Below the pieces are notes generated by a model. It did no database searches, was not told the DNA's origin, and saw only the letters and a list, made by a program, of their open reading frames with translations. Shown one piece after another: positions 1 to 31,873 of a stretch of DNA of 35,011 nucleotides. The DNA is from Ramlibacter sp. (GTDB lineage Bacteria > Pseudomonadota > Gammaproteobacteria > Burkholderiales > Burkholderiaceae_C). The position numbers were made by a program, and so were the translations under genes. The stretch covers positions 1 through 35,011 of the forward strand of contig JAGRPN010000130.1 in the NCBI GenBank assembly GCA_019449555.1, read 5' to 3'. Within the stretch, counting starts at the first letter, position 1, and each line of letters starts with the position of its first letter.

Positions 1-3000
1 CGGCCAAACAGGTGGAGCGGCTGGTGGGTCGATCTCCATCTCAGCGGGCAACGACGTCCAGTTCGGTAATTTGCTCAGCTTCGGCAGCGACACCGTGTCC
101 TTGGGCAGCGGTGCAGGTGGCGCGGGCGGAAATGTATCCATTCTTTCAAGCCAGGGCAGAGTCAACGGGACCGACGTGTACGTGTGGGGCGGAAGCGGCC
201 AGCCCGGAGGCAATGGCGGGTCCATCAATGTGTCGGCGGGCGCCAACGTGCAGCTCGGCAACGTGTACGGCTATGGCGGCTACAGCGAAACCGCGGCACC
301 CGGCGGCGCAGGCGCAATAGTTTCGATCGGCTCGAGTACGGGCAGCCTCGATCTGGGCTACGTTTCCTCGCGCGGCGGCGGTGGCGTGCCCGGGGGCCCT
401 GGCGGAAATATCACCTTGTCCGCGCCAACGGGCTCGGTCGCTGCGCGGGCCGTCGACAGTTCGGGCGGGGATGCGTCGGGCAGTCCCACAGGGGGCGGAA
501 AGGGCGGCAACGTTTTGATCACCGCAGGCTCCGGCATCAGCTTCTCGCCGGTCGAAAGCGACGATGTCTATAGCCCGGGGGGCACTGGCAACGGCGGGGC
601 CGGCGGCATCGGCGGCGATGTGACGCTGTCCAGCGGCACGGGCGGCATCGTCATCGGCTCCGGAATCATCGCGTCCGGCGGCATCAACGTATTCAATACC
701 AACCCGTCGGTGGCGGGGAAGGTGAGTTTGTCAGGTGCTTCGCTCGACATCGGCCCATCCGCCTCGGTGCACGCCAGCGGCGTCCAGATGGCGGTCGATA
801 CGATCAGTTTGCAGGGGGCTCCAGGTTCGATCGACACTGGCACTGGGTTGATCTGGATCGCGACGCAAACCCCCGGGCGGGACATCGAACTCGGCGGTTC
901 AGGCCTCGTCGGCAGTTTGCAGCTGGGCGCCGCCGAGATCGACACGCTTTCGACCTCCGGGGTGGTCCGGATCGGGTCCGCCCTGAGCGGCTCCGCCTCC
1001 GGGAGCGTCCACGTCACAGACGCGATCGCGCCCCTGGGGGGCATCATGGGGGCGCTATCGCTGAAATCGGGCAGTGATATCACGCAAACGCCGGCCGGCG
1101 TGATCAGCTCCGGGAAACTCGCGATCGAAGCAAAGGGCGGTGTGATGCTGGACGCGGCCGCCAACAGTGTTTACAGCGTGACCGGTCGCTCGGGCAACTC
1201 CGACGACAAGGACTTCAGATTCAGCAATGGCGCCACCCCTCTGCAGGTTGGTGGCGCGCTCGATTTCATGCCCGCTGGCATTTCGGTTTCTGGGACCGCT
1301 GCCGGTTACGCCGGCGACACAGGCAGCGGCGCCGACGGGATTATCGCGCTGACTACGGGCAAAGCGCTGACGCAGGCGCCGAATGCGTTCTTGGCCGCCA
1401 AGGCAGTGTATGCCGAGGGCAAGTCCGTGGACCTGAGCGCATCGAATCCCACGGGCGTCATCGCAGGCCAAGCCACCGGCACCGCTTCCGGAGACATCTT
1501 CAGGTACTGGAGTTCTGCGGGGATCTTCCTGAACACGGTGAATGGGTTCAGCGGCATCCAGCAGGCCGATCTGGTCGATCCCGTCGGGATCTACCTGCGC
1601 GGCGCGAGCATCGGGCAGCAAAGCACCGCTCCGGTGGTTTCGCCTGGGGGGCTCGACCTGACGACCACCACCGGCTCTATTGCGCTGAACTCCACGGCCA
1701 ACAGCGTGGCCACCTTCAGTGCCAGCGGGCCGGGTCCGCTTGCCTTCAACAATGCCGCCGACCTGACGCTGAAAGCGATCTCGGTGAGTTCAAGCTCGAG
1801 TGTGAATATCGCGAGCGCCGGCGCTTTGACAGTGTCGCAGAACATCGACGTCGGCGCGGGGGTCGTGCTGAGTGCGCAGGGAGCCGGGAAGAGCCTGAAC
1901 GTGAACGCGCCGATCAATAGCACGGCGGGCGGTGACGCCGTCGTCCTGAGCGGCGCAAATTTCGTGAACTCTTATGGCACCGGTGCGGTCAGCGCGCCTA
2001 ACGGAAGATGGTTGATCTATTCCAGTGATCCGGCCTCCGACACATTCGGCGGCTTGCTTTCCGGCAACAGCGCCGTGTGGGGCGCCACTTACACAGCCAA
2101 TCTCCCCGGAAGCATTGCCGCTGGAAACCGTTACGTATTTTCAAGGCAGCCCACGGTCAGCGTCACTGCCAATCCGCAGAGCAAGATCTACGATGCGACG
2201 CCGACGTTTGCTTCGCCCACGTATTCGGCCTCAGGCATGGTTGACGCTTCGTTGTACGGCGGTGTATTTACCCAGGATGTGTTGACTGGCTCCCTGACAA
2301 TTGCCGCTCCCTCCAAGAACGTGGGCAGCTATTCCATCCAGCAGGGAAGTTTGACGCAGCCCAATGGTTACCAGCTCACTTTCACACCCGGCATCACTGC
2401 GACGATCACCCCAGCCTCGCTCACGGTCACCGGAGTTTCTGACAAGGTTTACGACCGGACGACGGTCGCGACGCTGAACGGCACTACTACTCTTGGCGGT
2501 GTGCTTGCGGCCGACAACGTCAATGTCAGCGCCGGCACTGTCGCCTTTGCCGACAAGAATGTGGGTACTGCGAAACCGGTAACAGTGACGGGCGTCACGC
2601 TGAGTGGCACGGACGCGAGCAACTACACCGTTTCAGCACCGACCGGGTTGACTGCGAACATCACCCCGGCGTCCGTGACATTGACTGGGATCACAGCGAA
2701 CCCCAAAGTCTACGACGGCACCACGGTGGCGGCCCTGAGCGGCACCGGGGTGCTCAGCGGCGTTGTCACGGGCGATAGCGTGAGCGTGAGCGGCGGCACT
2801 GGCAGCTTTGCCGATAAAAACGTGGGCACCGCGAAACCGGTATCGGTGACGGGTGTAGCCCTCACAGGACCAGACGCGGGCAATTACACGGTCACTGCGC
2901 CCAGCAGCCTGAGCGCCGACATCACGCAGGCCAGCCTGACGGTGACCGGCCTGACGGCTATGTCCAAAGTCTATGACGCGACGACCACGGCCACCCTGAG

Positions 3001-3898
3001 CGGCACCGGCCTGCTCAGTGGTGTTATCACGGGCGACAGCGTCAACGTGAGCGGCGGCACTGGCAGCTTTGCCGATAAAAACGTGGGCACCGCGAAACCG
3101 GTGTCGGTGACGGGTGTAGCCCTCACAGGACCAGACGCGGGCAATTACAAAGTCACTGCGCCCACCACCATCCTGAGTGCCGACATCACACCCGCCAGCC
3201 TGGACATCACTGCACTGGATCAGGCAAAACTCGAAGGTACGCTGTTCAGCTTTACTGGTATGGAGTTTTCAGCCGCTGGTTTGGTCGGTGGCGAACAGAT
3301 AGTTAGTGTCGCCCTGGCCAGCCCCGGCGCGGCCGTTTCCGCGCCGGTGGGAAGTTACGGCATTACAGCCAGCTCGCCGGGGGGCGCCTCAGGATTCCTC
3401 GCGTCCAACTACAACATCCGTTTCGCTGGTGGCACCATGCTGGTAAATGCTGCCGTCGCTCCGCCGCCGGACTCCACGCCACCGACGACTCCCGCCCCGA
3501 CGCCAGCTCCTACCCCGGCGCCGACACCTGCGCCCACGCCGGCACCGACACCTGCTCCCACTCCAGCGCCAACTCCCGCGCCGACACCTGCTCCCACTCC
3601 CGCGCCCACCCCGGCGCCCACGCCCGCACCGACACCTGCGCCCACGCCTGTACCCACGCCTGCACCGACCGCCGACCCGACATCCACCAGCACGGTGGAC
3701 AAGATCGTGGAAATCCTGCGGCAGGAAAGTCGCGCCGTGATCCAGGAAGCCGTGGCCGAACTCGATACCGGCGCCTTGAAGACGTTCGTGACGCTGCTCG
3801 TCAAGGAGGCCGAAGTGCAGGTGGCCGAAGCGGAGAAGAAAGCCGCGGACGAGAAGAAGGCGAGCGGACTGGCCGGCGACAACCAGTGCCGGCCCTGA
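1..3898 (+). CDS. Large secreted adhesin-like protein with MBG/YDG repeats (5' end outside window)
   Basis: The reading frame is open from base 2 to the stop at 3896-3898, about 1298 visible residues, so the true start lies upstream; the TTG at 71 is only an internal codon. The first 200 or so residues are glycine-rich (GGNVSI, GGSINVS type units), as in beta-helical haemagglutinin-type exoproteins. A long beta-repeat region follows, then one MBG-like unit (about 2150-2416) and three YDG-type repeats (2417-3196) with KVYDGTT and FADKNVGTAKPV motifs. After a further beta domain come a PTPAP tract (3488-3670) and a roughly 70-residue lysine/glutamate-rich helical tail ending in NQCRP. No autotransporter barrel is visible at the C-terminus, so export by a two-partner secretion pore is the likeliest route, though no partner is seen here. 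The family is known for surface adhesion; the exact ligand cannot be told. It converges on the glcD-like gene, 24 bp away. Confidence 0.85.
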   Translation, partial: GQTGGAAGGSISISAGNDVQFGNLLSFGSDTVSLGSGAGGAGGNVSILSSQGRVNGTDVYVWGGSGQPGGNGGSINVSAGANVQLGNVYGYGGYSETAAPGGAGAIVSIGSSTGSLDLGYVSSRGGGGVPGGPGGNITLSAPTGSVAARAVDSSGGDASGSPTGGGKGGNVLITAGSGISFSPVESDDVYSPGGTGNGGAGGIGGDVTLSSGTGGIVIGSGIIASGGINVFNTNPSVAGKVSLSGASLDIGPSASVHASGVQMAVDTISLQGAPGSIDTGTGLIWIATQTPGRDIELGGSGLVGSLQLGAAEIDTLSTSGVVRIGSALSGSASGSVHVTDAIAPLGGIMGALSLKSGSDITQTPAGVISSGKLAIEAKGGVMLDAAANSVYSVTGRSGNSDDKDFRFSNGATPLQVGGALDFMPAGISVSGTAAGYAGDTGSGADGIIALTTGKALTQAPNAFLAAKAVYAEGKSVDLSASNPTGVIAGQATGTASGDIFRYWSSAGIFLNTVNGFSGIQQADLVDPVGIYLRGASIGQQSTAPVVSPGGLDLTTTTGSIALNSTANSVATFSASGPGPLAFNNAADLTLKAISVSSSSSVNIASAGALTVSQNIDVGAGVVLSAQGAGKSLNVNAPINSTAGGDAVVLSGANFVNSYGTGAVSAPNGRWLIYSSDPASDTFGGLLSGNSAVWGATYTANLPGSIAAGNRYVFSRQPTVSVTANPQSKIYDATPTFASPTYSASGMVDASLYGGVFTQDVLTGSLTIAAPSKNVGSYSIQQGSLTQPNGYQLTFTPGITATITPASLTVTGVSDKVYDRTTVATLNGTTTLGGVLAADNVNVSAGTVAFADKNVGTAKPVTVTGVTLSGTDASNYTVSAPTGLTANITPASVTLTGITANPKVYDGTTVAALSGTGVLSGVVTGDSVSVSGGTGSFADKNVGTAKPVSVTGVALTGPDAGNYTVTAPSSLSADITQASLTVTGLTAMSKVYDATTTATLSGTGLLSGVITGDSVNVSGGTGSFADKNVGTAKPVSVTGVALTGPDAGNYKVTAPTTILSADITPASLDITALDQAKLEGTLFSFTGMEFSAAGLVGGEQIVSVALASPGAAVSAPVGSYGITASSPGGASGFLASNYNIRFAGGTMLVNAAVAPPPDSTPPTTPAPTPAPTPAPTPAPTPAPTPAPTPAPTPAPTPAPTPAPTPAPTPAPTPAPTPVPTPAPTADPTSTSTVDKIVEILRQESRAVIQEAVAELDTGALKTFVTLLVKEAEVQVAEAEKKAADEKKASGLAGDNQCRP
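2417..3196 (+). repeat. Three tandem YDG-type repeats within the adhesin
   Basis: Three units of 85, 87 and 88 codons start at 2417, 2672 and 2933. Each opens with an S-(L/V)-T-(V/L)-T-G strand, carries KVYD near residue 12 and FADKNVGTAKPV in the middle, and closes with an ITPA/ITQA turn. Units 2 and 3 share about 103 almost identical bases (2786-2888 and 3047-3149, offset 261, one difference seen), pointing to recent duplication or gene conversion. Confidence 0.85.
3488..3670 (+). repeat. PTPAP proline-rich low-complexity tract
   Basis: About fifteen 12-base units encode P-T-P-A with one V substitution near the end. Third codon positions vary between units (CCG, CCC, CCT; GCG, GCC, GCT, GCA), so the protein sequence is more uniform than the DNA. 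It probably forms an extended, stiff spacer between the YDG repeats and the helical tail. The antisense strand gives an artificial V-G-A-G repeat that should not be taken as a gene. Confidence 0.9.
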
Positions 3899-5416: not shown

Positions 5417-5708
5417 GGACCGGACTTTAGGGCATGCGAGTCGCCCCGGGTATGAGCTTTTTGCATGGTGAAGCTGAAAAAACGCTTCCGTCAGCCCGTA
5501 GTCGGCCTCGGCGCCGGCCGGGGCCAGGATAGGAATGTTCCGACTGTGCGCTATGCGCTATGTCAATTCGGCACTCATCCGGCGCTGGCACCATCTCTTC
5601 ACGAGATTACGAGACAAGCAGCAAAAGGACGGAAAGGACGATCATGAGCAGTATCCAGCGTGAAAAGCCGGACCGCGTGGTTTCAGCAGGCAAAGAGGAG
5701 TCGGGACA
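5417..5708. other. Divergent intergenic region of 292 bp
   Basis: The region separates the divergent glcD-like and RquA-like genes, so it should hold promoters for both. I see no consensus sigma-70 pair that I trust. A short direct repeat, TGCGCTA twice in a row near 5546-5562, is present. Its right part holds the small ORF at 5644-5712. A 60-codon frame at 5465-5647 has no ribosome-binding site or recognisable sequence and is not called. Confidence 0.5.
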
Positions 5709-5712
5709 ATGA
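5644..5712 (+). CDS. Candidate 22-residue upstream ORF coupled to the RquA-like gene
   Basis: An ATG at 5644 preceded by AAAGGAC (a plausible ribosome-binding site, about 5632-5638) opens a frame of 22 charged codons. It ends in a TGA at 5710-5712 that overlaps the ATG of the next gene at 5709, giving an ATGA junction. That geometry is typical of translational coupling. The next gene also has its own GAGGAG site just before its start, inside this frame. It could be a leader peptide or chance; the peptide itself (begins MSSIQREKPD) is not recognised. Confidence 0.35.
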   Translation: MSSIQREKPDRVVSAGKEESGQ

Positions 5713-6497
5713 ATACCTGGATGAGCAATGCCGCCTTCGGCATCTTCTTCGTGTTGGCCGCCACGGGCCTGTTCTTCTTCGTGGTCACCCGCGGCGCGTT
5801 GATCGTGCGGGGCCTCGCCGGCGCGGGGCACGAGAGCTCGCACGTCTACCCGATCTACTCCAACATGGGCCTGATCAAGCTGGTCGATTACCAGCCCGTC
5901 ATCTCGGCCATCCTGCTGTTCCAGTATCCGCGCCTGGTCACGAAGATCGTCGAGGGCCTCAAGGCCACCGATCTGCGCAACAAGAAAGTGCTGGTCACGT
6001 CCTGCGCCTTCGGCAACGTGATTCCGCGCGTGGTGGAAGCGTCGCTGCAATCGGGCGCCGAGAAGGTCCTGATCGCGGACATCATCCGCAACGAGCTGAT
6101 CCACGCGAAAAGCAAGCTCGCCCATTATTCCGGCAAGGTGCAGTACATCGAGGACAACGCCACCGCGATGAAGCAGGAGGAGGGGCTCGCCGACGCGAAC
6201 GTGATGTTCTTCCTGCTGCACGAGCTGCCGCACCACCTCAAGGCGAAGGCGCTCAGCGAAGCCGGCCGCATGCTCAAGTCCGGCGGCAAGCTGTACCTGG
6301 GCGAGTTCCACAAGCCCGAACCCTGGTTGCTGCGCATCCTGAGCTGGACCTACTTCAAGGTGTTCGAGCCGCTCGGGCTGGCGCTGTGGGATTCGCACGA
6401 CCCCGTGCTGCTGCTGCAGGAAATGGGCGGCTGGTCGGTGGAACGCTCCACCTACTTTTTCGGCAATTTCCAGGTCATCACCGCAACCAAACACTAA
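5709..6497 (+). CDS. Membrane-anchored class I SAM-dependent enzyme, RquA-like
   Basis: The 262-residue protein starts with one hydrophobic segment (residues about 9-33), then a SAM-binding Rossmann domain. The usual GxGxG of motif I is replaced by VTSCAFGN (96-103), followed by IPRVVE. Later motifs are FFLLHELP (167-174), GGK (192-194), EFHKP (199-203), EPLGLALW (220-227) and TYFFGN (248-253). From family knowledge, this set (non-canonical motif I, FFLLHE-P, an acidic-aromatic-H-(K/R)P turn, EP..L.LW, TYF.G) resembles RquA, the enzyme that converts ubiquinone to rhodoquinone with SAM as amino donor. The membrane anchor would fit a lipid-soluble substrate. Start ATG 5709 has GAGGAG upstream. 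Transcription ends at the strong terminator downstream. It could instead be a paralogous methyltransferase; family placement is inference, so no symbol is given. Confidence 0.6.
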   Translation: MNTWMSNAAFGIFFVLAATGLFFFVVTRGALIVRGLAGAGHESSHVYPIYSNMGLIKLVDYQPVISAILLFQYPRLVTKIVEGLKATDLRNKKVLVTSCAFGNVIPRVVEASLQSGAEKVLIADIIRNELIHAKSKLAHYSGKVQYIEDNATAMKQEEGLADANVMFFLLHELPHHLKAKALSEAGRMLKSGGKLYLGEFHKPEPWLLRILSWTYFKVFEPLGLALWDSHDPVLLLQEMGGWSVERSTYFFGNFQVITATKH

Positions 6498-30982: not shown

Positions 30983-31873
30983 ATGGAGGGGAAGCTGCGC
31001 CTCTATCTCGACCTGATCCGCTGGAATCGTCCGGCCGGATGGTTGTTGCTGCTGTGGCCGAGCCTGAGTGCGCTCTGGATTGCCGCCGAGGGCTTTCCGG
31101 GCTGGCACCTGCTGGCGGTCTTCACGCTCGGCACCATCCTCATGCGCAGCGCCGGCTGCTGCGTCAACGACGTGGCCGATCGCGAGTTCGACCGGCACGT
31201 CAAGCGCACGGCCCAGCGGCCCGTCACGCGCGGTGCCGTATCGGTCAGGGAAGCCTTGTCGCTGGGTGCCATGCTGGCTCTGGCGGCATTCGCTCTGGTG
31301 CTGACCACGAACGAGGCGGCCATTGCATGGTCGTTCGCGGCGCTGGCGATTTCGCTGGCCTATCCGTACGCCAAGCGCTTCGTTTCGATGCCGCAGGCGG
31401 TGCTCGGCGTCGCGTTCAGCTTCGGCATCCCGATGGCGTTTGCCGCCGTGCAAGGCGCCGACTCCTTCAGCTGGCCGGCCGTGCTGTCCGCAGTGCCGCT
31501 GTTGGCCTGGGTGCTGCTGTTGGGGAATCTCTTCTGGGTGCTCGCCTACGACACCGAGTACGCGATGGTGGATCGCGACGATGACCTGAAGATCGGCATG
31601 AAAACGTCGGCTATCACCTTGGGCCGAGCGGACGTGCCGGTGATCATGTTGTGCTATGCGAGTTATCTGGTCATCTGGGGCGCGGTGTTGGCCGCCCGGC
31701 TGCCGTTCTTGGTGCTGACAGTCACGCTGCTGGCCGCCGCCGCCCAGGCTGCGTGGCACTTCACGCTCATTCGGGACCGCGAGCGCGAAAGATGCTTCAA
31801 GGCCTTCCGCCTGAACCACTGGCTGGGCTTCACGCTGTTTGCCGGCATCGTCGCCGGCCATGCGCTCCGGTAG
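30983..31873 (+). CDS. ubiA: 4-hydroxybenzoate polyprenyltransferase
   Basis: UbiA (296 residues) attaches the polyprenyl tail to 4-hydroxybenzoate in ubiquinone synthesis. It is an inner-membrane protein with about nine helices. The two prenyl-diphosphate and Mg-binding motifs are NDVADREFD (62-70) and the later [15 protein letters not shown] 30983 ([17 protein letters not shown]) is preceded by GGGG at a proper distance; the frame is open 18 codons upstream, inside the peroxidase remnant. It converges on proC with a 5-base gap. Confidence 0.96.

Follow-up and report, generated by a model that had tools for sequence, protein, structure and literature searches.

RquA converts ubiquinone to rhodoquinone using SAM and Mn2+, by an unusual SAM amino-transfer chemistry. 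In the accessible text of PMC11707229 and PMC13386864, bacterial rhodoquinone synthesis is attributed to this single protein, and quinone repertoires are predicted from genomes accordingly. The accessible sections of PMC9814641 report that RquA is necessary and sufficient in vitro and that a double alanine variant of D118 and D143, two aspartates of the SAM pocket, is inactive. The window, i.e. the whole stretch of 35,011 nucleotides analysed here, contains a gene whose product had been described in the original prediction as an RquA-like enzyme with an N-terminal membrane anchor. We assign it to a family beside RquA, hereafter the sister family. The features of the window that are relevant to this assignment are the following:

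5709-6497, + strand: RquA-sister gene for a predicted membrane-anchored class I SAM-fold protein of 262 residues (open reading frame, translation, NCBIfam score, clade and structural model)
5692-5700, + strand: AAAGAGGAG just 5' of the sister gene, a probable ribosome-binding site (letters read directly; the role is a plausible assignment)
5715-5819, + strand: N-terminal helix, residues 3-37, containing the hydrophobic membrane anchor (AlphaFold2 model, hydrophobicity counts)
5994-6017, + strand: motif I, VTSCAFGN, residues 96-103, of which C99, F101 and G102 match C-x-Y-G of RquA (residue table)
6078-6080, + strand: D124, at the position of the SAM-ribose aspartate (RquA D118 by motif position), invariant in the sister, RquA, INT and UbiE rows
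6156-6158, + strand: N150, at the position of RquA D143 (residue table; numbering by motif position)
6207-6230, + strand: FFLLHELP, residues 167-174, of the RquA type FFLLHE-x-P (UbiE rows have an FGLRN-type sequence)
6303-6317, + strand: EFHKP, residues 199-203, with H-x-P common to RquA and absent from UbiE and INT (residue table)
6366-6389, + strand: EPLGLALW, residues 220-227, with E-P and W common to RquA (residue table)
6450-6467, + strand: TYFFGN, residues 248-253, with G252, and Q255 just after it, common to RquA (residue table)
31049-31825, + strand: ubiA-family prenyltransferase gene (PF01040, 206.8 bits)

The reading frame starts with ATG, has its ends exactly at 5709 and 6497 and is intact, and the five motifs that had been pointed out originally (VTSCAFGN, FFLLHELP, EFHKP, EPLGLALW and TYFFGN) are all found in its translation. 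A pattern search yielded 167 matches, 114 of which code for a relative of the window protein; the best 80 of these 114 confirmed candidates, full length or nearly so, were retained and are 62-85% identical to it, the closest of those retained being from Ramlibacter (83-85%). The differences from one relative (L009) number 36, 23 and 81 at codon positions 1, 2 and 3, and among close relatives they lie mostly at third positions. Because relatives are conserved and differences are concentrated at third codon positions, we take the frame to be a real, conserved gene. No match to it was found among plasmid records.

Among the 15 NCBIfam models that match the window protein, the RquA equivalog model (NF038261) is the best, with 107.9 bits (6e-31) against a cut-off of 175. 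The UbiE model TIGR01934 gives 39.5 bits (cut-off 158.35), and the Pfam assignment is Ubie_methyltran with 42.1 bits. When 397 genomes from the GTDB family of the window were searched, scores above E 1e-18 fell cleanly into two groups, RquA at 281-318 bits and the sister family at 108-120 bits; the identity between the two families is 21-27%. In profile comparisons the sister family matches RquA with a probability of 99.8 (E 1.5e-29) and a second RquA-related family, here termed INT, with a probability of 99.7 (E 3.7e-26), whereas INT is closer to RquA than the sister family is (probability 100, E 3.7e-53). The INT family (L176-L192, e.g. L188:4965-5690, L184 and L180) scores 143-187 bits with NF038261; since this range straddles the NCBIfam cut-off of 175, the name RquA would be given to some of its members and withheld from close relatives. 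No consistent neighbour gene was observed beside INT genes.

In a tree of 87 rows the sister family forms a single clade (100/100) on a stem of 3.21 changes per column, and a group comprising the sister family, RquA and INT is separated from UbiE and the other methyltransferases (100/99). All 26 sister rows fall into this single sister clade, which lies outside the 26 RquA rows. With UbiE as the sole outgroup, represented by 10 rows that are all UbiE by TIGR01934, the values are 100/100 for the sister family, 95/95 for RquA and 66/91 for INT, in a tree for which the program warns of long branches meeting and whose bootstrap had not fully settled. In the best tree the support for joining the sister family to RquA is weak (81/72); by the AU test, neither the grouping of RquA with INT (p 0.41) nor that of the sister family with INT (p 0.28) is rejected. 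Sixteen of the 17 INT rows branch apart from RquA; the remaining one, L178, branches with it.

The predicted likeness to RquA is borne out by the best-scoring NCBIfam model, by the profile probability of 99.8 and by RquA-type residues that are absent from UbiE. The tree with RquA and UbiE that had been suggested as a check likewise places the protein with RquA apart from UbiE, but outside the RquA clade. That it might be a true RquA is not supported, as its score lies below the cut-off, it falls into a clade of its own and it carries Asn at the position equivalent to D143; the alternative offered at the time, a sister family not yet described, fits better. Membership in RquA proper was thus rejected on score, tree and residues, and a UbiE-type methyltransferase on score, motifs and tree. 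Judged from sequence, the window protein belongs to a branch of its own within the RquA superfamily and is not an RquA equivalog. In the titles and abstract openings on RquA and rhodoquinone that were searched, with supplements, preprints and most subscription papers outside this scope, no description of the sister family was found, nor is one given in the accessible text of PMC9814641, PMC5953543, PMC11707229, PMC13386864 and PMC6529003, so that a membrane-anchored sister of RquA appears to be an undescribed family.

A column-by-column comparison of 26 sister, 26 RquA, 17 INT and 10 UbiE rows identified C99-x-[F/Y]101, FFLLHE-x-P, H201-x-P203, E220, W227, G252 and Q255 as features of both the sister family and RquA that UbiE lacks; G102, D124, R187 and P221 are common to all families compared. 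The sister family thus resembles RquA in the class I SAM fold, C-x-[FY]-G, the Asp at the D118 position, FFLLHE-x-P, H-x-P, E-P...W and the C-terminal G..Q, and also in that complex II genes adjoin in some genomes. With UbiE and Coq5 it shares the overall fold, but the GGTG motif I is replaced by CAFG and the FGLRN-type sequence by FFLLHE. The INT rows share C-x-Y-G, FFLLHE-x-P and a segment resembling D-x-QP-I-I-x-AIL-F-x-QY with the sister family, but have neither the membrane helix nor H-x-P and keep the YWWAY of RquA. Where RquA has the N-terminal YWWAY...FERxWLVN, the sister family has HVYPIYSNM...DFQP, the latter part reading DYQP in the window protein. The RquA residues D118 and D143 (R. 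rubrum numbering) were placed by motif position in an alignment without the R. rubrum sequence; by this mapping the window protein has D124 at the D118 position and, at the D143 position, N150, which is preceded by D149. The equivalent of D143 is Asn in 73% of the sister rows and Asp in 88% of the RquA rows. The residues retained in the sister family and RquA and not in UbiE (C-x-[FY]-G, HE and H-x-P) would be candidates for catalysis and Mn2+ binding, and we propose H171, E172 and H201 as candidate metal ligands. Residues that differ between the sister family and RquA are candidates for a role in substrate choice.

The AlphaFold2 model of the window protein (mean pLDDT 92.1, pTM 0.88) consists of one continuous helix from residue 3 to 37 followed by a class I methyltransferase fold, in agreement with the SAM-type fold that had been predicted. 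Its top match among solved structures is SAM-bound yeast Coq5 (E 5.3e-11, TM 0.65). A single-sequence search found no solved relative at E 0.01, and a profile search of solved structures matched 17 chains, mostly named methyltransferases. The anchor was scored as a window of 19 residues with a mean Kyte-Doolittle value of at least 1.6 within the 45 residues preceding a fixed motif, in frames read from stop to stop, so that a few residues may precede the true start. Such a segment is present in all 95 scored sister rows (82 distinct) and in none of the 61 scored RquA rows (56 distinct) or the 16 scored INT rows. Rows without the fixed motif, 8 of 103 in the sister family, 4 of 65 in RquA and 1 of 17 in INT, were left unscored; in the 8 sister rows concerned, such a hydrophobic segment was also found within the first 110 residues of the frames. 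The N-terminal membrane anchor of the original prediction is hence confirmed as a trait that sets the sister family apart from RquA. RquA itself is described as probably monotopic, with its first 40 residues dispensable, in the accessible sections of PMC9814641; as an association with the membrane has already been proposed for RquA, the anchor of the sister family would be an addition to it.

The sister family co-occurs strongly with RquA. Among the 397 genomes of the same GTDB family RquA over the cut-off was found in 31, the sister family in 14 and both in 12 (Fisher test by genome, p 4e-13); by genus, RquA is present in 6 of 7 genera with the sister family versus 19 of 126 (p 3.5e-5). The two carriers with no RquA over the cut-off, G025 and G194, are rated 99% and 100% complete, and 19 of the 31 RquA genomes do not have the sister family. 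The order sample (399 genomes) contains two carriers, the window's own genome and G688, both with RquA; in the class (370) and phylum (299) samples the own genome is the sole carrier. These samples overlap partly, and the sister family was sought in them with the RquA model. A set of 79 carrier genomes was reached by way of the sister loci, all of them consequently chosen for having the sister family and at least seven also present in the family or order samples. RquA exceeds the cut-off in 60 of the 79 (37 of 50 and 23 of 29); of the others, one has a truncated RquA match and 18 have none. As a crude marker of anaerobic ubiquinone synthesis we used the U32 family, which includes UbiU and UbiV as well as other peptidases. 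Among U32-positive genomes the sister family is present in 11 of 24 with RquA versus 2 of 232 without it (p 2.8e-11). A generic anaerobic marker was judged insufficient as an explanation, since the association with RquA persists within this crude control. The own genome has one U32 match only, G015 has none and 4 of 14 carriers have fewer than two, so that not every carrier shows evidence of anaerobic ubiquinone synthesis. Gene numbers vary among individual genomes: Ramlibacter lithotrophicus (L019, L046) has two sister copies plus RquA, and the genome G1423 (L171, L172, L029) has three RquA genes and two sister genes.

Six of 80 sister loci are flanked by fumarate reductase genes (8 of 103 rows, including two repeats), as are 38 of 65 RquA rows, with at least three weak matches among these 38; no frd genes were found in the examined flanks of the other 74 sister loci, nor in those of 18 extra loci. 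In L022 and L036 the sister gene is followed in tandem by RquA next to frd, and in L052, L053, L057 and L059 it immediately adjoins frdABCD, in the same orientation. In the assemblies of these last four loci RquA was not found, but as the assemblies are mostly MAGs and contigs under 3 kb were excluded, single absences are weak evidence. L053, L057 and L059 form one clade in the tree, so that the linkage to frd in genomes lacking detectable RquA rests on two lineages. FrdA of L059 and L053 reaches 940-941 bits against a cut-off of 854. FrdC and FrdD have Pfam matches in L052 and L053. With curated models FrdD scores 90.2 against a cut-off of 60; FrdC exceeds the cut-off of Pfam but stays below that of NCBIfam. 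By these scores the frd genes examined are classed as quinol:fumarate reductase. FrdB of L059 is 89-91% identical to the FrdB beside RquA in five loci (L098, L099, L104, L132 and L135; Rhodoferax-type) and 76% identical to that in L127. Since FrdB is only about 54-61% identical between L022/L036 and L052/L053/L059, there are two Frd lineages, and the linkage arose with more than one type. MenD, taken as the marker for menaquinone, with the futalosine route outside the scope, was over the cut-off of 244 in none of the 35 tested carriers, L052, L053, L057 and L059 included, and in 7 of 14 control genomes. Weak MenD matches of at most 91 bits in 33 of the 35 carriers are taken to be related thiamine enzymes.

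Upstream of the sister genes a perfect FNR box was found in 19 of 90 regions, and one with at most one mismatch in 28. On a non-redundant basis boxes with at most one mismatch are present in a median of 11 of 52 sister regions versus 3 of 107 control genes (p 3e-4), after 18 regions shared with divergent control genes had been dropped; before this step the controls gave 7 of 121 (p 0.005). With six other palindromes of the same shape, the 52 regions yielded no perfect match and, over all six, just one region with one mismatch. The window's own sister gene has no FNR box, its best candidate having 3 mismatches of 10. Of 57 regions upstream of RquA genes, 12 contain an FNR box with no more than one mismatch, and FNR sites have been reported upstream of ubiTUV in the accessible text of PMC11707229.

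We consider it probable that the sister family represents a membrane-tethered SAM enzyme which converts ubiquinone to a low-potential quinone for quinol:fumarate reductase when oxygen is scarce. The N-terminal helix would hold the class I SAM-fold enzyme to the inner membrane, ubiquinone would be modified with SAM, substrate and use of SAM being assumed to be as in RquA, and the low-potential product would presumably serve quinol:fumarate reductase at low oxygen. Given such a role in quinone metabolism, the prospect that the product is rhodoquinone itself falls only a little short of even; a variant or further-modified aminoquinone appears rather improbable, and a protein that mainly assists RquA slightly more so. 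That the gene is linked to frd where no RquA was detected speaks for an activity of the sister protein's own; that most carriers have also retained RquA speaks for a product or step outside the reach of RquA and against simple equivalence of the two. These estimates are not exclusive, as two of the alternatives discussed below, an alternative synthase and a partner of RquA, overlap with the membrane-tethered quinone-modifying enzyme that we prefer.

It is possible, if on balance doubtful, that the sister protein is an alternative rhodoquinone synthase, isofunctional with RquA, tethered to the membrane and perhaps tuned to another oxygen level. This reading would readily accommodate the four genomes in which the gene lies directly against frdABCD with RquA not found and MenD not over the cut-off, the close similarity of FrdB in L059 to the FrdB proteins beside RquA, the active-site-type motifs common to both families and the nearly complete or complete carriers G025 and G194. 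It is at odds with the 60 of 79 carriers that have kept RquA, with the scores far under the RquA cut-off and the long stem of the clade, and with the Asn at the D143 position and the different N-terminal segment. A partner of RquA, serving as a membrane dock, as a delivery subunit or as the enzyme of a step that follows rhodoquinone, would instead agree with the strong association of the two families across genomes, with their tandem arrangement in L022 and L036 and with a conservation of the sister family tighter than that of RquA (mean column identity 71% versus 61%, for row sets that differ). We regard such a partner as unlikely, however, since 19 of the 79 carriers have no RquA over the cut-off (one with the truncated match) and four of the loci without it are frd-linked, since 19 of the 31 RquA genomes manage without the sister family, and since RquA alone is reported to suffice in vitro. 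An ordinary SAM methyltransferase, UbiE-like or acting on another substrate, whose co-occurrence with RquA would reflect nothing but an anaerobic lifestyle, is very improbable: the Pfam assignment, the generic fold and the unrelated neighbours at most loci would be compatible with it, but the UbiE signatures are replaced, the family groups with RquA apart from UbiE, and the association with RquA persists among U32 genomes, crude as this marker is.

The sister family thus tracks RquA, adjoins frd in a few genomes in which RquA was not found and often has FNR boxes. This pattern suggests either that there is another way to a low-potential quinone or that the known pathway has a component so far overlooked, and the sister protein may be a second enzyme of low-oxygen respiration that has escaped notice. 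It might tentatively be hypothesized that it is a second, independent bacterial enzyme that converts ubiquinone to rhodoquinone or to an undescribed aminoquinone at the membrane beside fumarate reductase, enabling fumarate respiration in organisms with neither RquA nor MenD detected, such as the Rhodanobacter-like MAGs and Polaromonas RGN.1. If so, the capacity for a low-potential quinone would extend to genomes that have been judged to lack it. The sister family also provides a natural comparison set for the SAM amino-transfer chemistry of RquA. The UbiE-like R. rubrum gene Rru_A2553, which according to the accessible text of PMC6529003 is induced without oxygen and whose deletion caused no significant quinone change, was considered as a possible counterpart of the sister gene.

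The genome from which the window derives has a genuine RquA on another contig (C214; 294.9 bits) adjoining frdA, to which the sister protein of the window is 26% identical. The use of rhodoquinone by the organism, as originally suggested, is therefore supported by a gene other than the one on which the suggestion was based. Six genomes were listed for the genus of the window (g1); RquA and the sister family are both present in the window's genome and both absent from the other five. The sister gene of the window has no frd neighbour; it is flanked by genes for an FAD oxidase, a LysR regulator and an aminotransferase, neighbours that recur only in a few Ramlibacter-like loci, and this neighbourhood gives no functional clue. 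The ubiA gene noted earlier elsewhere in the window is indeed present, and no evidence was found for a link between it and the sister gene. The genome has three UbiA-family prenyltransferase genes, this one and one each on the contigs C125 and C244. The frame at 71-3898 of the window is large, repetitive and rich in Gly and Ser, and a long Pro-Thr-Pro-Ala repeat lies close to its C-terminus; several Ramlibacter-like loci have long frames at the corresponding place.
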